In this document: one piece after another, positions 6,570 to 51,100 of the stretch
Position numbering within the stretch: the stretch's first letter is position 1
Layout of the letters: each line of letters starts with the position of its first letter
NCBI GenBank assembly: GCA_021234155.1
Contig: JAJEKV010000003.1
Location: 26,702,233-26,766,232, forward strand
DNA length: 64,000 nt
Source: Isoetes taiwanensis
Taxonomy: Eukaryota > Streptophyta > Lycopodiopsida > Isoetales > Isoetaceae
Reading direction: 5' to 3'
Program-made: the position numbers and the translations under genes
Notes under the pieces: generated by a model
Told to the model about the DNA's origin: nothing
The model's input: the letters and a program-made list of their open reading frames with translations, nothing else
Databases searched by the model: none

Positions 6570-9247
<2,678 letters not shown>

Positions 9248-34146: not shown

Positions 34147-36060
34147 GACCAAAATAAAAACGCAGACAACACGATTGCAAATTAAACGGGAGTGTTGCAT
34201 CACTCCCGTTTCAAAGATTCCCTTTTAAAAAACACCATGTTTCTAAAATAAGCATTTTTTGAAAGTTGTTGAGAATTTCTAGAGATTCGCATTTTTTTTC
34301 GTGTCATTTTGGGCCATTATTAGGCGATACCTTTGTACTTATGAAACAGAAATCATACAAATAGCGAAATTTAGGCATAGACTTGAAGAGACTGAAAGCA
34401 TGAAAAAAAAAAGCACCAGAATAGAGAGGAAAAAAAAGTAATATGTTTTTAATAAATTCTCGTACATCATTATGGAAGATTCATTGTAATAAATAATGAT
34501 AATTTTAATATGCAGTAGTCAAAGATCTACATCATAGTCCTCATCATTTTTTTTTTTTGCTCTCTGCTAGATCTCGTCCTTCGTCTTGCCGTCTGCTCCT
34601 TTGCTGGAGACTTAATTTTTGTATCCTCCTTGTCCTCTGGAATGGTAGCTAAAGCTACTTCTTTAAGCTCTGCAAAGGTTGCCTCATCGTCTAGTGAGCT
34701 GGAGAATGGAGGCTGGATCTCAGAGGACGTTAGTTTAGCATAATCAGATGAAGACTTGGCCTCTAGCTCTTGATGTTCATCTGGTAAAGTAGGTAAAGGC
34801 GCCGGTCTCATCTTCACAAAATTAACAAACATCCTTATCAATATCCACGGCTACACGATTGCGGCCCTTCTTAAGTGCACATGCGATAGTAGTACGAGAA
34901 CCGGAGAAAGCATCAAGCACCCAATCTCACGGGCCGAGAACATGTCCAGGAGATGGTTGATGAGCTTTTGTGGTTTCTGATAGTGCTTCACAATCCTGCC
35001 TTGTGCACTTGGGTCCTGCAATTTCTGTAAGACTGCTGGAAACTCAAGGACGTTTGAAAAGTTTTGACAGGCGGCAGTGTTGAAGTGTTCCATGGTCCTC
35101 TTCCCATCAAAACTCCAATAAGCTACATGAAGGTACTCTACCTTGCTAAGCAACCTTGGTCCTCCACCATGGTAGTTGATGTTCGTTTTGTACCTAGTGA
35201 AACATTTAAAGTGATGTTAGCAAAAACAAGAAAACACTTCGAAAACCAGAAACAGATACTATTCCGGAATACGCTACGTAATCAAAGAGAAAAGTAATCA
35301 GATTACGGAATAAGAGACTACTGAACAAGGTTTTCATATCCTGCTTGAACTGGAGAACCAAAGTGGTTTTTGAAAGCTGATTCTACCAAGCCAGACTGCA
35401 TGCTCGAATGGAAAATAACTAATCGCCAATGTTTAGCCGTTGTGATCTGCTTGATTCCATCAATAAAAGCATTAAACTCTGAAAATTTGAAGGGTTGGTC
35501 GTCGTATCTGCTGTCTTTAAGCTTAAACCCGTAGGGAAGATCAGCAATAACCAAAGTGAAGTCATGTGGCTTAACCGTTTCGACAAGGTTCGTGCAATCA
35601 CCATGAATGATTGAGTAGAAATTATTTTGATCAAACATGCAAAATCTCTCGTAGTCGGATGGTTCTTGCTCAACAGTTCTTCTTTCAGCTAACGACCTCT
35701 CTTCCCGTGCTGTTCTAACCAAATGCATGAAGCCCTCGGGAAGGTCTTTGTTTTTCTTTTTGCTCTGAGGAAAAATATAACAACAACTGTAAGGAGATCG
35801 TGTGTGCAAAGACGAGGAATGTTGAGAGTACTTACCCCCAGCCCTCAAAATTTGGTGCATATTGCACAATGCGCTCGTCAGAAGTGGCTATTGGGTAGAG
35901 TTCCTTGCATCTTTCCCATGTCTCTACGTTTAGCTGCTCCATCAAACATGTTTGACATGTTATGACGTTCTTTTGGCTGCAAGACGTTAAGGAAACAATG
36001 GGTTAAAAAGTAAGAAACAAGGCAAAGTAGAAGGAAAACAAATAAAAGTCAAGCTATTTG

Positions 36061-36343
36061 TATTCTGGAATACAAACTGGTTAACTGGTGATGCTACCTC
36101 GAAACAATGTGCAGAAAATAGTTCTGTTAAAGGACACACACATTGCTTGTCTCTAGAAAAGCATTGTGTATTCCGGAATACACATTGCTTCTCTGAAGGA
36201 AGCAATGTGTATTCTGGAATACACAATTCTATGTGTATTCCAAGATACACATGCCTTCCTTCACATGGGCAATGTGTATTCCGGAATACACATTGCTTGT
36301 CTCTAGAAAAGCATTGTGTATTCCGGAATACACATTGCCCACG
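36061..36343. repeat. Palindrome array A (intron of the methyltransferase gene)
   Basis: Perfect cores TATTCCGGAATA lie at 36169-36180, 36277-36288 and 36319-36330, with variants at 36061 (TATTCTGGAATA), 36210 and 36236. Here the cores are flanked by GCAATG.../...CATTGC, so the palindrome extends to 28 bases at 36269-36296. A ~50-base unit (36139-36189) is repeated exactly at 36289-36338. The array lies within the 36376-35977 intron. Single copies lie in the neighbouring introns (35260-35271 and 36643-36654). Confidence 0.9.
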
Positions 36344-37757
36344 TCTAAAGAGTAAAGTTTGTGGCAGAGATCTTACTTGTGCAATTCCTTTGACATTTCT
36401 TCTAGGCTAAACTCCTTATCAACAACTTTTTGGAGAAGCCGCTCCAGAAGCTCTGTGTCGGAGAAGCCCCATTTTTCTCCCAGACGGTAATGGTCATTTC
36501 TTTTTTAGGCACGTCAGATGATTTTTTCTTGGCTATCTCCTTGCCCTTGCTCTTTAACTCCTCTCGTTCGAACATTGTAAATATCTCGTCGTGGAGTTCC
36601 CAAATTTGTTCAAAAAGATTTCACGTGAGATAGTTGATTTGTTATTCTGGAATACGTTTTGTGCTTACCTTGCCATCTCTAAAAGCTAATTGGAACCAGT
36701 TATCGTGGCCAATGAGAGACTGCCTTTTATTGGCCTCGTCATATTTCAGGCAGCATTCAATGGCACACGCCTCCTTAAGCTCCAAGGAAAATGCTGGCTT
36801 CTTCAGGTCCTCACCGTACTTTTCCTTGAAAATTACGTACTCCCTGTGCATGAACCGGATCTTTTTGACGAAACTCATTTTTAGTTTGTACTCGTTGTCA
36901 GCATTGTGGGTGCTGGCAACGATTTTCGCTTCTTCATCGGTAAGACCACAGTAGACAGCGCAGAGGACGGAGAGGTACCTCGGGCTCTTCTTCTCTTTAT
37001 AAAGTTGCCTTCTTGCCTTGAAGCTGTGATTGCCTCCCAAGACGTAGTGAGTGTAGGTGTCTGCGTTTTCTCTGTCATAGTCCTGGGGGGTTTTGCACTG
37101 CTCCCTGTCAACAATAACAACTATTGGGGCCACATGAGCATTTGGATTGCTCCTTATTCTGTCTTTCAGGTTCCTCAAGTGATCGGCGTAAATTTTGCGA
37201 ACCTGAAGTGGCCTTTCACCAGCTTCATTTTTTGGTGGAAGCTTCATACAAGTGACTGGCAAATAAATGACACCTTGCACAAACTTGTGCAGGTTAATCT
37301 CTTCCATTTTCTCAGATGTTTTATCAACTTTTTTTTCTTTGATAGCAACACCAGGTGCTTTGCCCTTCCCCTTCTTCTTCTTAGGTTCCTCAGGAGCATC
37401 TTCTGCTGTAATCAAAGCCGTTTGCTTTTTTTTAGGCTCTTTAGCAGCAACGGTTTGCCTTGGCCGCTTCTTTGGTGGTGGTGACGGTGGTCTTTCTTCG
37501 GACTGTGATGGACTCCCAGATGGTGATGATGCACCGCTCGGGCTCTCTGGGTTATCCTCTTCCCCTTGTTCTGACTCGCTGTAGGGGAAGTCCTCGCTCG
37601 TTGTGCTTCGAACGTAGTTAATGATGGAAGAGAGCGACTTCTTGTTCAGGTAGTGAGAAACATACTTATAAAGAGGATGTGGATTTACTTTCACCACTCT
37701 AAGGTAGGATTCATCAACATGAATGAAGCCTTGGGATGTCTGAAAAGACAGTCTCCC

Positions 37758-38807
37758 CCCGAGGGGTGCCTATCCTATGGGGGATATGCCACCTGCGTAC
37801 GTAGGGTTGTAAAAAAACCCCTATATACGACACTTTTTTAATAAAAAACCCCTACCATACGATTTTCAAATTTTGCATGCATATACCCCCTCCCAATTTT
37901 ATACGTCATTTATCAATTAAAAAACCCCTCGTATACGACCTTCTGTGAACATTTCATATACCCCCAATATGTATACGTAACTTTCTTTAAGTATATATAG
38001 TTACTAGAAGATTGATGTTGAAACTGAATTGAAGTATCATGTTTGATAATGTTTGCTCATATGAGTCTCGCATTCTCCTTCACATCTCAAAACATTAAGC
38101 TTCAATAATCATATGCAAATATCAAGTGATTCACTCAAAACCATAGTTTTTACAACCCAAGAAGATCATGACATCCAACTAAAGTGGCATTGAGGTAGCA
38201 TGAAGCAATAGATAACATGCACACAACATGGCATAATCCAAGGCTGTTTATACTTGGCCAAAGACTAAGCAACCTTGTTCTTCCCTTTGTCACCTGCAAA
38301 AATAAAAACACACATCAAGTTAATCAATATATTGAAAATTAAAGAAACTATTAAAATAAATATAAAAACAAACCTTTTATTTGATTGGCCACAAAGCTAT
38401 CAAAAAGCACTTTATCTTCTCTTTCTAAACTATATCTATTTGTTTCAGCATTCGTGACCCATCCTCCAAACAAGATGAAAAAAATCTCAAGAGGAAGCCA
38501 AATCGTTTTCAAATTTGTAATCCCATCCAAGGAAAAAAACGAGTAGAACAAAATAAAAACATTACCGGTAATCTTAATGTTGCAATCTGATTGATGCCCC
38601 CTATGAATAGGTTGTTGAATCACTTAGCCCTCTCCGTATCATACCATGTTCGGTTCCCCGCCACGGAGCACCCCTCTCCGTTAGTGTACGAAAAATTAAA
38701 AAAAAAAGGTACATTGTACCGTAGGTATACATACTAAGAACCCACAAAAGTAACCCCTTCATGTTTACGCACGTGGTTTGGGGGGTTCTTCTAAGTGACT
38801 CCCCCTT
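37758..38807. mobile_element. 1.05-kb insertion in the ParB-methyltransferase gene (MULE-like)
   Basis: Flanked by CAGTCTCCC (37749-37757) and GAGTCTCCC (38808-38816), a near-perfect 9-base target duplication typical of Mutator-like elements. Removing the insertion with one repeat restores an open frame across the junction with matching codon phase. The ends are weakly similar (right end inward aagggggagtcact). It contains a minus-strand segment with exon-like structure (WVTNAETNRYSLEREDKVLF at ~38460-38400, then GDKGKNKVA after a ttgcag acceptor at ~38300). This may be a captured host gene end; I do not recognise it. Pale copies of gggttttttt and cgtatacg motifs link it to the MITE at 43.6 kb. 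Confidence 0.7.
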
Positions 38808-39090
38808 GAGTCTCCCTACCTGACCGGACTCCCCAGCTACTTCACTCACGGCCTGGATGGTGCCCATGCAGACAAATTCCCTGTCATCGTACCTTTTGGT
38901 TCCAGGGCTCCGACAGACATGTAGGAAAGTAAGGGTGCTGTACTTTCCAGAAGTACCCCTTGTAAAGAACCATTGAGTTTGGAAGTTTTCGTAGATAGTA
39001 GGCGCAGCTGACTCCTCAAGCCTTCTCTGTGGGTGCGGTTTCTGTGGGATTTTAAGGGGCCTCTTCTGTTGTTTCTTGCTGTTGTCTTGT

Positions 39091-39950
39091 CTGTGCAAAT
39101 TGTTTGTAAACACGACCTTGTTAGAGAAAACAGTGGCCAAAAACTATTCCAGAATACAAAATGTCTTGCAAAAAAGGAAAAAAGAGGGCAAAAAGAGGAC
39201 AAAAATGCCAAAAAAAACACTGCAATCTTGACAAAGAAACAGGTCTAAACAAGCTTTAAAGGCAGGAAAAAAGCCTAAAATAACTAAAAAACGCATGGAA
39301 AAGTAACCTCTTAAAACCTAAAAACACGAAAGTGTATTCCAGAATACACTTTCGCTTTCACTCGAAGGCGAAAGTGTATTCCGGAATACACTTTGGCCTT
39401 CACTCGAAGGCGAAAGTGTATTCCGGAATACACTTTTCGCCTTCACCGGTTAAAGTGTATTCGGAATACTTCTTCACTCGGCGAAAGTGTACTCCGGAAT
39501 ACACTTTCGCAGTGTACTCCGGAATACACTTTCGCCTTCGAGTGAAGGCGATAGTGTATTCGGGAATAAGAAACAGACATGCAAATGATTGTACGTTGTA
39601 CTTTCTTACTGACCTGTCCATGTTCTCTCTATGTGAATCGAATACGGTCTGCGAATATTATAATCGTCCCGGCCGGCCGGGCGACTCGACTCGAGGATGG
39701 AATACGCAACTGAAGGCACCGAAATTTCCTTTTAAAGGTATCATTTTCGTCTTTCTCTTTTTCTATGTGAAGCGGAATACGTTTAGCTTTACTATCCTAC
39801 TCTTGTGTATTCCAGAATAGCTTTTATTTTGACTTTCACTTGATTAGTACTGGAACTTCTACTTGTACTACGTGGGCGTGTATTTGGGAATAAGAAAAGC
39901 TCTGCATTACAGAAAGTTTCTCAAATCTCTTTACTATTTTGCAGTTGTTA
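39091..39950. promoter_or_regulatory. Divergent control region between the two element genes
   Basis: The interval separates the first recognised minus-strand exon of the methyltransferase gene from the plus-strand ATG of the DUF7869 gene. It contains palindrome array B plus outlying copies at 39145, 39808 and a weak one at about 39880. A GC palindrome (ccggccggccgg) lies at 39669-39680. A role as a shared promoter or binding region is inferred from position. It may also contain an unrecognised 5' exon of the minus-strand gene. Confidence 0.5.
39331..39571. repeat. Palindrome array B (intergenic)
   Basis: Cores at 39335 (TATTCCAGAATA), 39377 and 39419 (TATTCCGGAATA), 39458 (TATTCGGAATA), 39489 and 39515 (TACTCCGGAATA) and 39557 (TATTCGGGAATA). 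The flanks here are GGCGAAAGTG.../...CACTTTCGCC, different from array A but still palindromic. Spacers repeat as cttcactcgaaggc. Confidence 0.9.
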
Positions 39951-42900
39951 AGATGACGAACCGCTTCATGAACAAGCTTCCACCACCTTTTGTTGTCTCA
40001 AGCTTGGGAACAACGTCATTTCTAGTGAAGACCGGCATTCTCTGACTCCTACCTCTGCTTCATCGTTGTTGCTTCTCGAAGACACACCGAGTCCAGCACG
40101 TAACAGACTTCCACCACCCTTCCAACCGTCACCAAGTCCTGTAGACAGCACCCTGGCATCTCCTTCCAAAGAATCACCACCAGTTCGGAGCATGTTGCCA
40201 CCACCCTTTGTTCCATCCCCGGGACCACCTACAGAAGCTCCACAACAACGGGTGTTCAAGAACAAGCTACCCCCATTTGTTGCTTCGCCCCCTTCATCCA
40301 AACATACAAGGAACACAGAAAGTAAAGAAGACTGTGAGATTCACTACAATTTCTCTCACCAGGACTTCATTACAAATGAGGACGACGCTCCAACATGCAC
40401 TCCTCTTCACACAACAACGGTTGTGACACATGGATTTGCAGAATTCCAGTCCGCTCTAAAGGAGATGTTTGCAAGAACTCCTTTTCAAGATGGTACAAGA
40501 ACAGCTGATGCCACAACCTCTTATGGGCCATAACCATCCTTTAACACTGTACCCCCGCCTATTCCGGGAACAACTTCACGTGGTCTGTTTTCCTCTACAA
40601 GCACACCACTCAGGACAGAGGAAGTCACCCCCAGAATAGAAGTTTTATCAGAAGATGAAGACACCAACGGGGAACAAAGAGATTACATGTTCTCCAGCCA
40701 AACTTCAAAGAAATTCAAGGTGGATTTTGGTTTGAGGGCGTGCTTCTCTGCAAGAAGAAGAAATCTTATGGATGAACACAAAATGAGGAGACTTTTGAGA
40801 ACTAAATGCTGCTCATTGGGTTGCATCAACAGATTTAACATGGCTAAATTACGAGCAGTTAGAGACAACTACAGTTCCATGACATTGGCAGACCAGAATG
40901 CCTACTTAGCTTATCATGTAAGACCAGACCGCAACACCTTCTTGCACTACATTAACCGTCAAGAAGTTTGCCAGAAATGCTTTATGGTTGTCCACCGTTT
41001 AGGGTCCACCAGAATGTCTAGAATACACAAAAGACTGGACAAAAATCCAGCAATCGATGATCATTATGGACCAAGAAGAGTTGTAACCATGCATGCCCTT
41101 GCTGCTGTGTCATGGATGGAGAAATATTTTAGAGAAACATGTGAGAAGCTACCTAACAGCAACATGTATCATTTAACTGATAACATCACCAAAAAAGATG
41201 TTTTTAATGAGTACAAAGAGACTTGCACTCAGCTTCAGCACCCCCTTAATGTTGAGCTTCATTGGCAAGAAGGTAATCTAGAAAGGGTTATCAAAACAAT
41301 TGAAGAGATGGAAGCAAAGGGTGCATCTATCAGATGCAAAATTAAATATATTTCCAATATGGATCATGGAAATTCCAAGTTCTTTTACAGAGTTGCCAAA
41401 TCCAGACTTTTAAAGAGTCAGCTGACCATTGTCAAAGATGAAAATGGTAATATCTACTCAGATCAAAAAGAAATTTCCAATTTCTTTTGCTCCAACTATG
41501 AGAAAATTTTCTCCTAGCCAGTAGACAGCTCTGTGCAAATTGTTGAAGCCAAATCTTTCACTGATCTCATTGAAAATAATGGTCTACATAGTAATCTGAT
41601 CATGACCCCTTCCACAGATGCTATCCCCACTGCAGAAGAGACTTTCTCTATCCTCAAGAGTCTTGCCAAAGGCAAAAGCCCTGGCCCTGATGGTCTTCCA
41701 CCCGAATTCTACATTAGATTCTGGGATAATATTAAAAATGACTTTATGCACATGATTAAGGGTTTTTGGAATTCCAACCATCTGCATCCTGCTCTTTCTT
41801 CAGGCCTTATCACTCTAATCCCTAAAGTTGACAATCCTCAATCCTTCTCAGATTGGAGACCTATCTCTTTAACAAACTCCACTTATAAGGTCTGTGCTAA
41901 GATTATAGCCAACAGGGTAAAAGCTCATTTTCAAGAGATCATCAGCCAGAATCAATCTGCTTTTCTCCCAAGCAGATACATCCTAGATAACTACATTGCA
42001 GCCATGGAAGGAATGCATTGGAACAATCTAACTAAACAAAACTGTATTTTATTGAAGTTAGATTTTTCAAAAGCCTTTGACACTTTAAGGTGGAATTTTT
42101 TAGAATTCTCACTGCAAAAACTGGGCTTCAGTGAGAAAATTATCAAGCTTATCTTGGGATTAAATTCTAGATCCCAATCAACTGTTCTTGTGAATGGCTC
42201 CCCTGGATATTTCTTCCCTCTGGCTCGAGGTGTCAGACAAGGTTGCCCCCTAGCCCGTTATCTCTTTCTGGCTGTAGCAGAGATGCTCACTAGAGTGATT
42301 ATACATCATCAATCTGTGGGAAACATAGTTGGTCTGAATCTTCCTGACAATACTTCCAACCTTTCCATTCTGCAATATGCAGATGACTCCTTTAGCTTCC
42401 TCAAGAATGAGTCAGGCAATATTGCCAACTTCCTGAACACAATTCACATTTTTGGAGCAGCCTCTGGAATACATCTCAACAGAAACAAATGTACTATTAT
42501 TGGAGATTTAGATGTTGATAGTATTGCTGGCATCAAGTGCATCAAATCAACTGAGACAACCAACCTTTTGGGTATGCCATTGTCCCTCAATCCAAGTCTC
42601 AAAGGATTATGGACACCTATTGTTTCCAAAATCAGGAAAAAGCTAGGCAATTATGGCAATTGTCTTTCCCTTGCAGGCAGAATCATAATTGCTAATTCTG
42701 TTCTTGCTGCCTCTCACATTTATTACTCTTCTGCCCTTCTAGCTCCAAAATGTATCTATCAACAAATTGAGAGAATTGTTAGAAACTTCATCTGGAAGAA
42801 CCATCATATGGTTAACTGGAATACTATTACCAGAAGCAAGAAGCAGGGTGGCATAGGATGTAAGAACTTGGCTCTTTAGGGCTATGCTTTGGCTGGAAAA

Positions 42901-43642
42901 TATATTTGGAAATCCCTGTTCCTGCATAATAATCCAGCCACAATTTTTATCAAATACTGGCTTTCATGCAGTCATCCTAAAGGACATCCTTCTATCAGTC
43001 ATGATCTGCCTTCTTCAGCTTTCACAACTCTGAAACCTGCACCAAACATATCTCCTCTTATGAGAGGCATTATCCTGGCCTGGAACAAAGTTCACATTAA
43101 CTTTGAACATTCAAGCATTCAAAATAGCCACCCGAGCACAAGCATTTTTTTGAATCCTAATCTTTCCAGTGACAATAGTACTCCTTTGGCTATTAAGCAT
43201 CCTAAGTTATACAAAAAGTGGACAGACTTTGGTATTTCCAAACTTGGTGATTTATGGATTCAAACAAGATGGATTTCCTGGACAAATCTGAAAAATAAGA
43301 TTAGAGGCAGCTCATCTGATAAGCTTTTGTTTAGATTCATCAGGCAAAAACTTAGCAACATCAATCTCCTTAACAATCCTGTTATTAATGACTGGTTCAT
43401 TATGGGTAAGCCAAATTATAGTGTTTCCAAAGTCCACCTGTTTAAATACTCCCCACCAGCCCTCCAAATCCAAACTTTATTGGGGTCTCTCTGATGATTG
43501 TGAAAAAAGGCTTTTTAGGAATATCTGGAACTCATACTTGCCACCAAAGATTTCCTACTTCATCTGGTTAATTGCCAACAAGAGCCTATCAAATATGGAA
43601 ACTTTAGCAAGGCACTCGTCTTTAACAAATCCTGTGCATCCC

Positions 43643-43862
43643 AAGGGGGATTCACTGTAAGTGCCATTGACTTGTAGGGGAGTTTTTTCGACCCATTTCC
43701 ATACGTATACGTAAGAGGTAGGGGGTTTTTTGCCACTACTTGGGGTAAACTTTGTACGGAAGGGGTCGAATTTGCCTTTCAAGAAATCGTATACGGGGGT
43801 GTTTTTGATCACCCTATGCACGCACATGGCATACCCCCCTTACTATAAGTGAACCCCCCGGG
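43643..43862. mobile_element. 220-base MITE nested in the LINE, 9-base TSD
   Basis: Perfect target duplication GTGCATCCC at 43634-43642 and 43863-43871. The 13-base inverted ends AAGGGGGATTCAC and CCGGGGGGTTCAC differ at three positions. The 9-base duplication suggests mobilisation by a Mutator-type transposase. Excising it reconnects the LINE C-terminal reading frame at NPVHP. Confidence 0.85.
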
Positions 43863-44256
43863 GTGCATCCCAGCTGCCCTCTTGGTTGCAATAATGTTGA
43901 ATCTCTAGAACATATCTTTGGTTGTGCTATTCTAAATCCTTTCTGGAGATGGTTTGAAGTTACTTTTAATATCAACTGTCCTGCTACTTTGCTTGAGTTC
44001 CTGATGAATGATGATGCATTAATGAATTCCTTGTGTTACATTGCTTTGTGGAATGTATGGAAGCATAGAAATAGGTGTCATTATGGTGGAAAGACAATTT
44101 CTATATTTTGGATTAAATCTCAAGTTATCTATGACATAGAAATGGTTGCAACAAGTCAGATACACCAACACAATGATTCCTTAGATTCTTTGGATAATAA
44201 ATGGTTAACTATAGGCAATTTCTCTAGTGCATATAAAATATTTAAACTTCATTGTC

Positions 44257-44748
44257 ATGAATCTCTTACTGACACTTAATCTGTTACTGGTAGATTACAT
44301 GAGGAGCCTAAGTAGGGACATTTCGTTTGAGCCTGCAGAGTACAGACTGTTCCCAGGACAGAGGCTAGTTCATGATATACAGTATACATATGACATGTGG
44401 ACAGGTCCAGTCAGGGGCATCACTGACATTGACATACCATACATCCCGGATGATGAACTGGATTGGGCTATGGAATTTTGCAGAAGCACATATCTCATGG
44501 TGCAGCTATGGTGGTTTATGAAATGTAACAGCAGAATAATGACTAATCAACAGTTTGAGAATTACAGAGAATGTTATTACCACTACAGGTGCTTGGCAGA
44601 TGCATATGGAACATTAATCATTCTAATGTCCACCACAAATGCAGATAGGCTGATTATTGAGTTGAATTGGGGAAATGGTCGCACTCTTATTCTTCAACCT
44701 CAGTTCCAAGCTCACTTTGATTACCTTAGCTCCTACCACTTCCATTAA
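44257..44748 (+). CDS. Extra open frame downstream of the LINE polymerase
   Basis: An intact frame of about 163 residues (MNLLLTLNLLLVDYMRSLSR...YTYDMWTGPVRGITDIDIPY...LSSYHFH) overlaps the end of the polymerase frame at 44227-44279 and ends 370 bases before the poly(A). It is rich in Tyr, Trp and Asp. I do not recognise a domain. It may be a real third protein of this LINE, or sequence carried by 3' transduction. An unbroken frame in an otherwise damaged element is notable. Confidence 0.35.
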   Translation: MNLLLTLNLLLVDYMRSLSRDISFEPAEYRLFPGQRLVHDIQYTYDMWTGPVRGITDIDIPYIPDDELDWAMEFCRSTYLMVQLWWFMKCNSRIMTNQQFENYRECYYHYRCLADAYGTLIILMSTTNADRLIIELNWGNGRTLILQPQFQAHFDYLSSYHFH

Positions 44749-45121
44749 CATCCCTGTTCTCTTCTTATCCGTTATACTGCACCTCTCCTTTGGGACCACA
44801 TACTTATCTTCATATAACTGCAGTATTGTAGTATTTCATTAGCACTTAATCTATTTTGCAGGAATTCATTTTGGACTGGTCTTTGACTGGTTAAGGCAGA
44901 TGTTGCTGAACTTTATCAACAATGTTCTTCTCAGTTGCAACACAACAAATTTACCAGCTACTAATAAGGCTGAGTAATATTTTGGACACTACTAAGTGCT
45001 TATCACAGCACTTATCCTATTTGTATTTATCTACTTGCTTTTCTATGAGTGGCTTACTTATAAAGGCTCACTCAGTATGTTGTACCTTTTTCTATAATTA
45101 ATGAAAAAAACCCCATTCACT

Positions 45122-45155
<34 letters not shown>

Positions 45156-47395
45156 GAATTCGGTCTTGTGAAAATTCCTAGAAAACATAGAATGTCTGTT
45201 TGCTCGAGGTGTGCAGAATTAAAGAGTCAACGAGAAACTGCAAAGACAGAGGTCGAAAGAAGGAAGCTCATGTTCTCCAATCTCTCACTTGTTTCAGAGA
45301 AAATGCTTTGACCTGATTTCTTCTACAGATATTATGCAACAGAACCTTGCCAGACATCGTGAACAACAAGCAGCAGAGAGAAGAAAGCTTGCCAAGCATA
45401 GAAAAAAAGCTCTTGAACGTCCACTGCAATACATGTCTGTTGTGATTGATGGAATGGACAAAAAAAAACAACTCTACCACATTTCTTGAACATTCCTAAA
45501 GATGTGCCAGAGGAATATTTTGTTAAGGTCCGAGCTATGGTCTTCAAAGGAAGTCTAAAGTGCAAAGTATTTTTGACGTATCCAAACTTGCATGGTGACC
45601 CGAACCTCACAATTACAATTCTTAACAAGGTTACAGGCGAGCAAGAGCAATTACCACCAGTGCTTTATCTGCAACTTGACAATACTACAAGGGAGAACAA
45701 GAATCAAACACTCTTTGCGTACTGTGCCATGTTAGTGGAGCTAGGGATCTTTAGAAAAGTGAAGCTCGGTTTCTTACTTGTAGGCCACACTCATGATCAG
45801 ATTGACCAAATGTTGCCAGATTTTTACGTGCGCCTTAGAAGGAAGAAGGCTTTTGTCTTCCTTCTTTAGTTAGAATTATTGAAGATTCTTACACTCCTAC
45901 TCCGATTGGTCGATCTTCTTAAAGAGGCGCTGATTTCGGAGAGTTTGTTTTCTCTCAACGTTCAAACAGAGAACAAGGCGTGAACAAGTTGAATGATCTC
46001 ACCTTCAAAGATCATATCAAGTTCTACTTGAAGGATGGCCAAAGCTTCTTACAGGGGAAGAAGTATACCACAACTAAGGACTGGAGTCCACCAGAGGGAT
46101 TACGCTTCCTTAAATATATTCCAGACACTTCCTTCATAGAACGTGCTGAGCAACTTCCTCTCAAAAATCCTAAGGAGTCCAAGCAGAAGAAAAGTACCCC
46201 AGAAGTCATCCTTAAAAGCCATTGAAAATGGAATTTCCTCAGAGCTTTAAGTACTTCTTAGAAGAAGATCGGATGTGGTGGAGTAATTTCTTTCTCGAAT
46301 AGAAAATTGTTGTACAAAATATAGCTCTAAGACAGCTTGCAAAACCATTTCAATGGCCTAACACCTTCCATCAACCCCAAAGACCAAGCGGGTCCAAGCA
46401 AAGTGCTACATTTGCACTGCAATAGAAGACGAGGGAGGACCGAAGTCATGTACCTCGGACCAAGACGCAGGAATGAGCCTCAAGGTTATATCACGTAAAT
46501 TACCAAAGGTATGCTAATTGCTCTTCCGATCGAGGAGGATGACAAAGGTCTAACCGCTCGATAACAAAAGTGCTTGATCTGATCAAGGAGGAAGGCTTAG
46601 TCACTAAACTCAAGATTCATTGGCTTGCAACATTTCGAGAAAATGCTTTTGAAGGTAGATATGAGTTAGAAATGAGAAGCCAAGGAAAAGGGAGAAAGTC
46701 CAAGAAGGTGGGTTGTAGGGACGAGCTGAACCTTAATGACGTGACTATTTTGTGCTATGATTTTAAATTGAAATCTGACAATCGCTCACGCCAGAAGACT
46801 ATCAATTTGCTTAAAAAGCTTGTAATTCTGAAGAAGATGATGAAGAAGGTGGTGACAATGCTTCACCGGATGCGTTGATAGTGATGAGGAAGATAACTCA
46901 AGCACTTCCTCGGATGACAGTGAAAGAAGTGAAGGTGATGCGATGGCATAAATGAATATGAAGACGTCCTGGATCCCTCTCTCATCACTCCTCACACTTT
47001 TGCACATAACTGAGTCTTAGAAAAAGACTGTAAATTTTGCATGTGAATATGAAAATTCTATCTTCAAATTTTGAGAATACTACAGTTTCAGTTACAGACT
47101 TACTTCAATTTTTTGTTAAATATTTTATCCTCTGAAATTAGAGTTTCTCTCTTAAAACATACTTTAAGAACATTCTATTTGCTAAGAAAAGTGACACTTT
47201 AAAAAAGTCAATTCTTTCGTTGCAAAAAACAATTAGTCATTTGGGGGGGTCAAAATAGTTTTTTTAACCTCGTTTTACCCCCTTTGTAAAAAAAAAAGGA
47301 ATCTTTGAGGAATATTTCTTTTGCTCTCGTTTCAATGATTTGCTCCCATTTAATACGCAATCTTGTTAGACCCAACTTCTGTTTTGTACATTGGG

Positions 47396-47573
47396 AGAGA
47401 GGGTTCAGGATATACGATATCTCTAAATAATATAGGATGATAAAATTCAAATTCGTCCATTGGAAAGAGAGGGTTCAAATATCTCTAAATAATATAGGAT
47501 GATAGAATTCAAATTCGTCCATTGGAAGGGGGGGTTCAGGATATAGAATAGAATAGAATAGAATAGAATAGAA
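47396..47573. repeat. Tandem ~70-85-base repeat ending in (AATAG)n
   Basis: The block gagagggttca...atatctctaaataatataggatgataaaattcaaattcgtccattgg is present twice (about 47398-47463 and 47466-47527), followed by a partial third copy and then (aatag)n at 47547-47573. Confidence 0.7.
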
Positions 47574-47940
47574 TATACATTAATGTCCCTTGTGCCGCGA
47601 GGCCCCTGGACTTGTGTAGCATGGGCGAGCTCCCTAAAAGGGCGCTACTAGCACATCACGCTGTTATGATGTAGCCTTTTCTGAAGGCTGACTTTTTTCT
47701 ATTATTACCGGCATCCCGCTTTACTTCGGCTTTATGGCCGTGCAGTGATGCGTCGTTATCAATCAGCTTTTAACTGAACAATTTGTGTGGGGTTTATGAG
47801 CCACTTTTGTGCGGTTCATATTACAAACCCTCTTTCCCTGTCTATGACATGGGCTACATTAGTGTCGCCGATTACTATCAGGATTAAAAAACCCCACCCC
47901 AAAGGGTTTTCGAGGAAAAACCTTAATAGTAATGGGCTCA
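47547..47940 (-). mobile_element. LINE 3' end, reverse orientation
   Basis: Read on the minus strand, this stretch contains cctcgaaaaccctttggggtggggttttttaatcc at 47925-47888 and ends in a TTCTA array, matching the 3' UTR of the LINE at 22.2-22.7 kb with an extra diverged segment between. No polymerase reading frame was found upstream on this strand. Confidence 0.6.
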
Positions 47941-48119
47941 TCGACGCCTTTATATGATAATCCGTTTTGGGCGCAGGTTTTAGGCGCCTCCATTTTCGCA
48001 CAAGGCCCTTTTCAGTACTTGAGCCCTCGATGGGAGGGAAACGGAAAAGGCACCGGACCCCCGGGCAAGGGGGAACCTCCACAGGATGATATCGAGCTAC
48101 TCCATGAACAAATGAAGCC

Positions 48120-51100
48120 CCGATGCGTGAAATAGCCGAGGTAAAAAGCTTGGTGTCGAGTCTAGTAGAACGGAAGAATGACCTGGCAGGAGACCAACCA
48201 TGACTACAAGCAAAAATCAAGCTCGAAATAGCAAGAGCACAAGATGCCTCGAGAGATCATTAGGCTCAAGAGTGATTTAGACAGAATTCGTTGCTAAGCA
48301 ACCTCGGGATTTTGTTACCCAAATTGAAGCTAAAGTCTCCGGATCTTTTTCGACAAGGCTAGGAGGCCAGTATTAGAGCCGGAGGATAGACAACATAGAG
48401 CTAACAATATCAAAATATCCGGCATTGAAGAAACAGCAGATGAAAATTTATCCGAGACTATCAATGACGTATTTAAGAACAAGCTCTTCCTCCATGAACC
48501 TGGAATCCAATCGCATCGTGGTTGGTAGGAAAGTTGAAGGACGCCATAGACTGTCATTGTCAAATTCCCCGAGTGCAGAATTACGCAACCCGAGCAATGC
48601 AACACAAAGGAAATCTAAAGGGATACAAAATATGGTTAAATGAAGATCTAACTCAACAACAAAGAGAAAAGATAGAAAAGTGTTGCTAGATGAAGTAAAG
48701 AGACATTGCGGGCTGATGGAAAGATCGCATATATCCTTGGAAACAAGGTTATTGTCGAGAAAGCAGAGCATAGGAAGCCCGGACCCTCGGACTCTTAGTA
48801 TGGAACATCCACGGTGCTAAGCTAATCCAAATTTCTAACTTGCACAAACCTGCTCCAAAGAACATGACATTCTCGATTTTCTTGGAAACATGGGAATATG
48901 ACATGAGACCGCTTAGTTGATATCTTTGACTTCACCAAGCTTGCCACGCTACACAATAAAAAGGATCATGCGGAGGAATTTTGGGGAGGATTGGCGTGCT
49001 ACGTTAGCTCTTCTGTTTGGCCAGTGGAAATTGTCTGGACCTGCCCCTTTAAGCAATACTTGTGGATACGGATTAATGGACAAAAGCCCCCTCTATATTG
49101 CTTGTGTCTACTTTTTTATAGATCCCCGACATTGCAAAAGTATACCAACACCAGATTTAGATCCTCATGATCCATTCGCTGCATCTTGCCAAGGATATTA
49201 TAAAATACGGACAAAAGGATCGAATCTATGTGGCGGGGGGATTTCAATGCAAGATTGGGTACCAGACATGGGCCCCTTGTTTCAAAGCGAGAAAAATGAG
49301 CTTTGGCTACATGAATACGCTGATTTCAAGCATCCTTGGAAGCGGATATCTAGTGACCACACTAGCAATGCTATGGGAAATCATGTCTTTGCAGCCTATG
49401 TGGAGCATTACAATGGATTGTCTTCAATGGCATCCAAATCTTTCCGGACTCTCGAAATTACACATGCTTTCAATAGCGGCAAAGCTTCTGTTGTTGATCT
49501 CCTGCTGGGTAATCCCACTTGTACAATGCTCCATGACTTAGTGTTCTTAAGAAGCAACTTATTTCAGACCATGCACCCTCAAAGATAGCTTTCAAAGTGA
49601 ATAAACCACATGCTCCCACGCTGATTTTTGAAGCCCTCAAGATCAAAATCAATTACAAATATCTTGCAGGTGCATATGCGGATGCCTTAACAAGTAGACT
49701 TGAGCATGTATGGCCCGTGGATGCATTTGATTATAACCGGGTTTTGGTTAAAAACATCTCGGCAAAGACAAGCGAAAGTCTTTGGGACTACTAAGCCCGT
49801 AAGAAAGCGTCAAAATCAAAAGTGGTTTGACAAAGAATGCATGCTTGCTAAGCGGGCCCTAGGTATGGCAGCTGATAATCAGCAAGCAGCAAATGTTATA
49901 AAAAGCTTTCGAGGCGTAAAAGAATGAATGGCGGCGCAAAGCATGAACAAGACTTTAACCAACGGGGGGTGATAGATGAGTAAGGGCCTTTGGAACATCA
50001 CCAAAAAGCCCTTCTCCATGTCCTAATTTTTGCGAGAAGAGATGATTTCTTTGCTAAATGGCCTCTACACATTTCCAGCTCAAAGAGCCATGACATGAGA
50101 ACTACCACATGGCGGAAGTCTATTTTACTCCATCGGATGTGCAAGAAGCCTTGTCTGCAGATGAAAATGGTAAGTCCCCAGATAATCTAGGGATGGTGGC
50201 TGAATTATGCAAATGGGGAGGTGAGTTGCTCCTAGAAAAACTCACTCACATCTTTAACCCGGTGCTCAAGCATGGCGGAGACTTCGGATACAGTATGTTA
50301 GTAGAGCTGTCGGTGTATAAATGTGGCGATAAAGCAGGACATACATAACTACTGGGACAATTCTAGTTGGTAATATTATGGCTAAAACTTTTGCCTCTTT
50401 GATTGAGCAAAAGCTAGTGGATTGGGCCAAAGATGCGAGATGTTATTGCTTGAGCCAAGCTGGTTTCAGATCTGGTTACTCTACTATTGATCACTTAGTG
50501 ACACTCCGGTGCTCACGAGAAAATGCTAAGGGGCGGGGGAACAAACTATACCTCGCATTCATGGACCTTGCAAAAAGGCATTCGATCGCGTGTTGATCGA
50601 GGCAAGCTTCAAGGCAGGGATGGATGCAATTGGGGTCCCTCATGCTCTCAAAAAGCGATTGCTTGCCTATATCATAAGGTATTGGTGGAACTCTCGTTCC
50701 CTTTACGCCCGATACACGATTTCCAAAGCACCATAGGGTTAAACAAGGCTGCCCACCACCAAGACACTCTTTGGGCTGTTCATTGATGAAGTAGAATCTT
50801 GGCTCAATGACCGTAGTGGAATTGGTGCTGATTTATATGACCATGTAGTGAAGTTGCTGTTTGTTCGATGATATTGTACTCATCTCCAAAACACAATTGG
50901 GTCTGCGATCACATCTAGATGTCTTTGGCGCTTTTTGCAAGCATAAAGGTATGTCTATCAACCATTCCAAATCTAAAATCATGGTCTTTGGTTCGCTCCC
51001 ATGCTGATTTTCGGTTGGAGGTGTTGCTTTGGAAGCTGTCACTCATTATAAATATTTAGGGATTGAAATGTCTTCCAACTATAAATGGTCACCGCAAACA

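Follow-up and report, generated by a model that had tools for sequence, protein, structure and literature searches.

A stretch of 64,000 nucleotides of Isoetes taiwanensis DNA (hereafter the window) contains what appears to be a decayed DNA transposon with terminal inverted repeats (TIRs) and two genes. One gene encodes a ParB-like domain fused to a DNA amino-methyltransferase and the other a DUF7869 protein resembling a transposase, while copies of the palindrome TATTCCGGAATA are found in the introns and upstream region of the methyltransferase gene. The reading favoured here, with a probability of roughly 0.55, is that the ParB-amino-methyltransferase acts on these non-coding sites of its own element, much like the VANC protein of the VANDAL transposons. 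Coordinates are positions within the window, and letters are read on its forward strand. Papers are cited by their PubMed Central (PMC) numbers, and what is said of them refers to the excerpts available.

The ParB-Methyltransferase Gene

The ParB-methyltransferase gene is found on the minus strand at 34519-39621 and is modelled with seven exons and six introns, all six with GT-AG borders. Translation of the minus strand of 34400-39800 gives GGNHSFKARRQ in exon 3, DLPYG in exon 6 and DAFSGSRTT in exon 7. A first-pass annotation, made from the letters of the window alone, had described a ParB box, a methyltransferase motif IV and a motif I in this order, spread over at least five exons with GT-AG introns, and the gene model agrees with it on both counts.

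Exon 1 (39614-39621) is tentative; it consists of eight bases, carries the ATG and has a GT donor only. Exon 2 (38820-39090) encodes an N-terminal region without Pfam match. In exon 3 (36669-37739) a Ser/Pro/Lys-rich linker is followed by the ParB-like domain (37307-36669), and the basic runs of the linker can be read as resembling nuclear localization signals. Exon 4 (36377-36584) continues after the ParB domain, exon 5 (35836-35976) encodes a linker with CQTC, and the segment between the ParB-like domain and this CxxC is possibly a helix-turn-helix (HTH). Motif IV is encoded by exon 6 (35322-35762), while exon 7 (34519-35193) encodes YQKPQK, which on inspection looks like a motif X, then motif I and a charged tail. 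Intron 2 (37740-38819) is mostly made up of an insert resembling a miniature inverted-repeat transposable element (MITE), related to another insert at about 43640-43860 (local alignment score 63, approximately 105 bp).

The methyltransferase gene has at least three frame breaks, at about 36500 in exon 4 and near 34930 and 34825 in exon 7; these may stem from assembly alone. For searching, the pieces were joined across the breaks, with an X placed at two of the three. The read-through product is 938 residues long, with GGNHS at 328, DLPYG at 642 and DAFSGSRTT at 809, and it consists of the N-terminal region without Pfam match, the Ser/Pro/Lys-rich linker, the ParB-like domain, the CxxC and the methyltransferase, in that order.

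The Methyltransferase Domain

The Pfam family N6_N4_Mtase (PF01555) matches the read-through product with 47.8 bits and an E-value of 2.2e-12 (gathering threshold 26.7), the stretch reported being 134-216 of the 221 profile positions, i.e., the C-terminal part of the profile alone. PHROG 67 (DNA methyltransferase) matches over 16-233 of the 235-residue domain (2.7e-13), and the PADLOC models of type II methyltransferases match with E-values down to 5.6e-18. The top four PDB matches are MboIIA, CcrM, a putative modification methylase and RsrI (1.6e-4 to 2.6e-3), each aligning best around motif I, within 173-232. Motif IV (642) precedes motif I (809), which is the permuted order of the beta class, and this was checked by alignment with five phage enzymes.

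The five enzymes come from six phage loci considered for the alignment. The catalytic D.PY and the KP are retained in the plant copy, and DLPYG is common to two of the five. Motif I, however, reads GSRTT in the plant copy versus GSGTT (three enzymes), GSGST or GSGTS in the phages. With this motif and at least three frame breaks, the copy has neither an intact FxGSG motif for S-adenosylmethionine (SAM) nor an open frame. The first-pass annotation had suggested that the enzyme could deposit N6-methyladenine (6mA) or N4-methylcytosine (4mC) on its own DNA, which is unsupported for this copy because of the frame breaks and the altered SAM-binding motif. DPPY has been described as the mark of adenine enzymes, with SPPY as the contrast (PMC8885841), and the D at the first place of motif IV fits weakly with an adenine enzyme.

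A tblastn search gave 88 matching records in a phage collection (best E 4e-6; 19-26% identity among the 40 listed) and 62 in a plasmid collection (best E 8e-6; 23-28% identity among the 20 listed). Among the matches listed the alignments start at query position 347 or later, on the methyltransferase side, and no phage or plasmid record covers both halves, none reaching 80% of the query. One scan of genome contigs gave no prokaryotic relative of the fused protein, but such a single-protein scan detects close relatives only. Gain by transfer, as proposed in the first-pass annotation, has support at the family level only and for the methyltransferase part, where the relatives found are all from phages or plasmids, with 19-28% identity among the matches listed; a donor did not emerge from these searches.

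The ParB-Like Domain

No ParBc was reported in a Pfam scan of the product, so the profile check proposed earlier for the spliced protein came out for N6_N4_Mtase, above its gathering threshold, and not for ParBc. The NCBIfam model TIGR03764 (ICE_PFGI_1_parB) does match, over 137 residues, with 18.9 bits and 9.3e-4, under its curated cut-off of 143.75. In tblastn searches with the exon 3 domain at E-values up to 10 there was no phage match, and eight plasmid records matched weakly (E 0.6-9). All eight are annotated as 'ParB family protein', and six of the eight plasmids are typed as conjugative. A hidden Markov model (HMM) built from three of these ParBs gives the plant domain 29.9 bits (3.1e-8) while the best of 2000 shuffles reached 3.3 bits, but the control has some circularity, the three ParBs having been chosen as matches of the query; the NCBIfam match is free of it. 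With these three lines the fusion of a ParB-like domain to a beta-class methyltransferase, as first annotated, finds support on its ParB side too. Chance motif matches were considered as an explanation and rejected on the results from Pfam, PHROG, NCBIfam and the ParB HMM.

The alignment shows GGNTR...ELW.ET..ER(F/Y) in three ParBs of integrative and conjugative elements (ICEs) and GGNHS...QLYKEKKSPRY in the plant domain, where the arginine of Box II (the P motif) is thus replaced by serine. According to PMC12704722, tested proteins in which the Arg of this box was replaced by Ala no longer bound nucleotides, and with serine at this place nucleotide switching may be lost in the plant domain. 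A PDB search with the domain gave chance-level matches to non-ParB proteins only, PADLOC gave no ParB match, and a single-sequence structure model of the exon was poor, with a predicted local distance difference test (pLDDT) score of 41.1. In a Pseudomonas plasmid (51-2961) an annotated ParB gene and a separate DNA adenine methylase gene are found with one small gene between them, i.e., the same two functions unfused.

The Candidate Transposon

The DUF7869 gene is found on the plus strand, divergent from and head-to-head with the methyltransferase gene. Its DUF7869 domain is found at 45450-45866 (Pfam 2.8e-35), and judging from its motifs and position it would be a transposase domain. Open frames at 39952-41260 on the same strand, without Pfam family, probably represent the 5' part of the gene. 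They are split by an in-frame stop at 40531-40533, and inspection shows frame changes elsewhere in the gene. A structure model of the DUF7869 piece was poor (pLDDT 36.1), and no paper on DUF7869 was found in the open full-text literature. An LPPPF-type motif, possibly for docking, is seen four times at 39952-40330 (NKLPPPFV, NRLPPPFQ, SMLPPPFV, and NKLPPFV), the first in another frame than the remaining three. The gene is interrupted, downstream of these open frames, by a retroelement without long terminal repeats (non-LTR) at 41240-45155 on the plus strand, its 5' edge being approximate (RVT_1 9.9e-32; poly-A 45123-45153). The MITE-like insert at about 43640-43860 sits inside this retroelement.

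Both genes are enclosed by inverted repeats of 25 bp, at 34168-34192 (plus strand) and 47343-47367 (minus strand), the left one agreeing with the right, read as its reverse complement, at 21 of 25 positions. Direct reading gives AGAC immediately outside each repeat, at 34164-34167 and 47368-47371, as a candidate target-site duplication (TSD) of 4 bp. The unit thus displays the TIRs and TSD of a TIR DNA transposon, with ends that were selected after a scan of the flanks. For the TIR together with a shared subterminal stretch the alignment score was equalled by 1 of 19801 random window pairs, a figure that overstates the significance because of this selection. The unit is 13.2 kb long, of which approximately 5 kb are later inserts. 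The region is read here as one two-gene TIR DNA transposon that subsequently received a retroelement and a MITE-like insert, and the two genes would then have moved together. Association with a mobile element had been suggested in the first-pass annotation, and the candidate ends, the DUF7869 partner gene and the flanking 4-bp repeat all point the same way. Among known superfamilies Sola was considered for its 4-bp TSD. The TSD of Sola2 is AT-rich (PMC3627910), unlike AGAC, and the assignment to DUF7869 does not decide the matter.

The methyltransferase gene might instead be a host gene that was acquired horizontally, has become a pseudogene and by chance lies beside a DUF7869 element. Eukaryotes are known to have gained amino-methyltransferases horizontally (PMC8885841; PMC12344493), and the TIR ends are short. 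This explanation is nevertheless improbable, since the gene stands head-to-head with a transposase-like gene, inverted ends with matching 4-bp flanks enclose the two, and the palindromic sites, within the window, are confined to this unit. It is highly improbable that the locus is the remnant of an integrated DNA virus or of a larger mobile element other than a TIR transposon, even if fusions of ParB and N6_N4 domains are enriched in phages (PMC12704722) and Mariner elements with a methyltransferase are found in large DNA viruses (PMC3627910). Among the part of the window's open reading frames (ORFs) that was scanned with Pfam, no capsid, polymerase or packaging family was seen, and the gene contains six introns. 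IMG/VR, queried with three proteins and one site pattern, gave no relative, although single-protein scans detect close relatives only.

Palindromic Sites in the Non-Coding DNA

With at most one mismatch, TATTCCGGAATA is found 15 times in the window while 0.09 occurrences are expected, and none of 100 shuffles had 15. All 15 sites are within 35260-39819, in introns or in the upstream region of the methyltransferase gene, and the 2815 coding bp of the gene model contain none. They occupy five of the seven non-coding segments. There is one in the upstream region shared by the two genes (39808-39819), seven in intron 1 (39145-39568), one in intron 3 (36643-36654), five in intron 4 (at 36061, 36169, 36210, 36277, and 36319, spanning 36061-36330 and partly arranged in units of approximately 42 bp) and one in intron 6 (35260-35271). 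The segments without a site are intron 2 (1080 bp, mostly the later insert) and intron 5 (73 bp). When the 2617 non-coding bases were simulated 2000 times with a first-order Markov model, one site was obtained in ten simulations and more than one in none. Of 59 half-sites GTATTC/GAATAC, 29 are located within 34519-39900, none of them in exons. Exactly two mismatches are found at five further places, 35301 and 39881 in the non-coding DNA of the gene and 30310, 54108, and 63644 outside the element; the 27 further places with three mismatches are scattered across the window. The site pattern had no match in prokaryotic genome contigs. Neither the palindromes nor the frame breaks and the Gly-to-Arg change in motif I had been mentioned in the first-pass annotation.

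Pairing extends to 4 to 11 of the 12 outer positions at the eleven sites that belong to or adjoin the arrays in introns 1 and 4, against a background mean of 3.06. At each of the lone sites (35260, 36643, 39145, and 39808) 3 of 12 outer positions are paired, and the core word therefore recurs without the array unit. Nine substitutions are found across the 15 cores. Six are of the type C>T/G>A and affect the central CpG, two are T>C and one is C>G. C>T/G>A at CpG is the pattern expected from deamination of 5-methylcytosine (5mC). Host methylation of precisely these sites is suggested by the decay and would fit a contest over them.

A number of points weigh against the favoured reading. This copy of the methyltransferase gene is disrupted, with a motif I altered to GSRTT, the Box II residue for nucleoside triphosphate binding is not the arginine of the three ICE ParBs, and the HMM control of the ParB domain has the circularity described above. 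The candidate ends consist of short, imperfect TIRs and a TSD of just 4 bp, they were selected after the scan, and the score of the 25-bp TIR alone was equalled by 5 of 1982 random pairs. As for the sites, 11 of the 15 are in or beside two arrays and are therefore not independent, and arrays can also grow as minisatellites. Decay at CpG is expected in any silenced transposable element. Sites with at most one mismatch are absent from the right half of the element and from the vicinity of the TIRs. When the array units at 39377 and 36277 were compared, the one pair for which this was done, two mirrored pairs had changed with pairing kept and one had changed on both sides without pairing. Three further positions had changed on one side only. 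With such mixed changes, selection for symmetry is only hinted at.

In an alternative explanation the transposon is the same but its palindromes have nothing to do with the methyltransferase. They could then be sites to which the transposase or a host regulator binds, at the promoter shared by the genes and in introns, or a minisatellite spread by slippage and conversion, and the methyltransferase a mere passenger or a non-specific enzyme. Most sites are indeed in the two arrays, with units of partly approximately 42 bp, which is a common form of minisatellites. The four lone sites, on the other hand, are in separate segments and do not have the flanking symmetry of the arrays, and sites for a transposase would be expected beside the TIRs, where there is none with at most one mismatch, nor is there any in the DUF7869 gene. 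Unrelated palindromes are considered unlikely, even if this is the most serious of the alternatives.

Proposed Function and Comparison with Known Systems

According to the favoured reading, the element is a decayed TIR DNA transposon in which a DUF7869 transposase-like gene is accompanied by a divergent passenger gene, and the passenger would code for a ParB-amino-methyltransferase that has prokaryotic ancestry and acts in the nucleus. The protein of intact copies would enter the nucleus and recognise TATTCCGGAATA in the introns and upstream region of the element, by means of either the ParB/HTH half or the target-recognition region of the methyltransferase. It would then methylate an adenine, or possibly a cytosine, in this word on both strands. 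With sites upstream and in four introns out of six, the passenger could act both on transcription of the element and on host silencing. The methylation would control the element's own expression and oppose CpG methylation by the host, as VANC does for VANDAL. A more specific proposal is that the transposon has a site-specific amino-methylation system of its own that marks the palindromes with 6mA or 4mC and blocks or erases host silencing at the central CpG; this is tentative and, on balance, doubtful.

VANC of the Arabidopsis VANDAL elements, which are MuDR members (PMC12730594), is encoded by the transposable element, binds tandem motifs in its non-coding DNA and induces loss of silent marks (PMC10398659). 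The Isoetes element resembles this system in that a protein it encodes is accompanied by arrays of a short motif, which it would bind, and within this window the arrays are found only in non-coding DNA of the element itself. Host methylation also seems to contest the same regions in both. The two differ in that VANC is an anti-silencing protein that induces loss of methylation and is not, in the excerpts, called a methyltransferase, and in that the neighbouring gene here is DUF7869.

The fusions of ParB and N6_N4 domains in phages and prophages have the same two domains in one polypeptide (PMC12704722). Unlike these, the plant protein comes from a spliced gene within a plant transposon, and it carries an N-terminal extension, a lysine-rich linker and serine for the Box II arginine. 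DNA methyltransferases are also found on other eukaryotic mobile elements, such as the adenine methyltransferases of DIRS and the DNA methyltransferases of dinoflagellate and charophyte retrotransposons (PMC5890265). Those enzymes are Dam-like or C5 and belong to retroelements, whereas the present one combines a beta-class N6_N4 domain with ParB in a TIR DNA transposon. The fungal TET/JBP dioxygenases are likewise base-modifying passengers of DNA transposons, but they oxidise 5mC instead of methylating an amino group, and other transposase superfamilies are named for them (PMC12730594). The Mariner elements of large DNA viruses carry a methyltransferase gene too, with other transposase and methyltransferase families and a paired endonuclease (PMC3627910).

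Bacterial-type amino-methyltransferases in eukaryotes are exemplified by N4CMT of bdelloids (PMC8885841) and the 4mC enzymes of Marchantia (Walker et al. 2025, cited in PMC12344493). N4CMT also has introns, at five conserved positions, and Rodriguez et al. describe this bdelloid N6_N4 enzyme as being without eukaryotic homologs (PMC8885841). It is a host gene with SPPY and a chromodomain, while DLPYG and ParB are found here, in a candidate transposon. The Marchantia enzymes were acquired from bacteria (PMC12344493), and the earlier statement that plant DNA methyltransferases are mainly C5-cytosine enzymes or of the MT-A70 type is thus incomplete. Among the matches listed from the open full-text literature there was no paper describing a eukaryotic transposon with a ParB-methyltransferase, subscription papers and repeat databases being outside the scope of that search. 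No enzyme of this kind is mentioned in the excerpts of the fern genome paper PMC9477723.

DNA-modifying passengers have been described before in mobile elements (PMC5890265; PMC12730594), as have ParB-methyltransferase fusions in phages (PMC12704722). If the favoured reading is true, the combination of such a fusion with palindromes across the non-coding DNA of a plant TIR DNA transposon would make the element self-marking. Beside VANC there would then be another route to anti-silencing, with a different chemistry. Site-specific 6mA or 4mC would have a concrete source in a plant; reports of 6mA in plants have been questioned (PMC12695648). With a predicted target word, long-read data could test the hypothesis directly.

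Surroundings of the Element

The same window contains two PTR2/NPF pieces (3.1e-50 and 2.6e-36) and a MYB domain (1.1e-5), as found with Pfam. In PDB, one NPF piece matches the nitrate transporter NRT1.1 (1.4e-31), a plant protein, and SLC15A4 (1.8e-13), an animal protein. The possibility that the contig is a bacterial contaminant, named in the first-pass annotation as a risk to its claim, was rejected on the basis of the NPF and MYB domains and the spliced introns in the same window. A frame break was suspected in the NPF gene as well, and was dropped when the join there proved readable as an intron acceptor.

Rfam gave no matches at its gathering threshold. At 47550-51000 there is apparently a second, strongly decayed element of non-LTR type beside an ATAGA microsatellite, with an ORF at 48917-49585 without Pfam match. 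A fragment similar to TIP49/RuvB is found on the plus strand at 7059-7559 (Pfam 2.9e-28), perhaps from a RuvBL gene or pseudogene. The segment 60001-62000 displays a strong purine skew, with a GC skew of 0.45 and an AT skew of 0.39.

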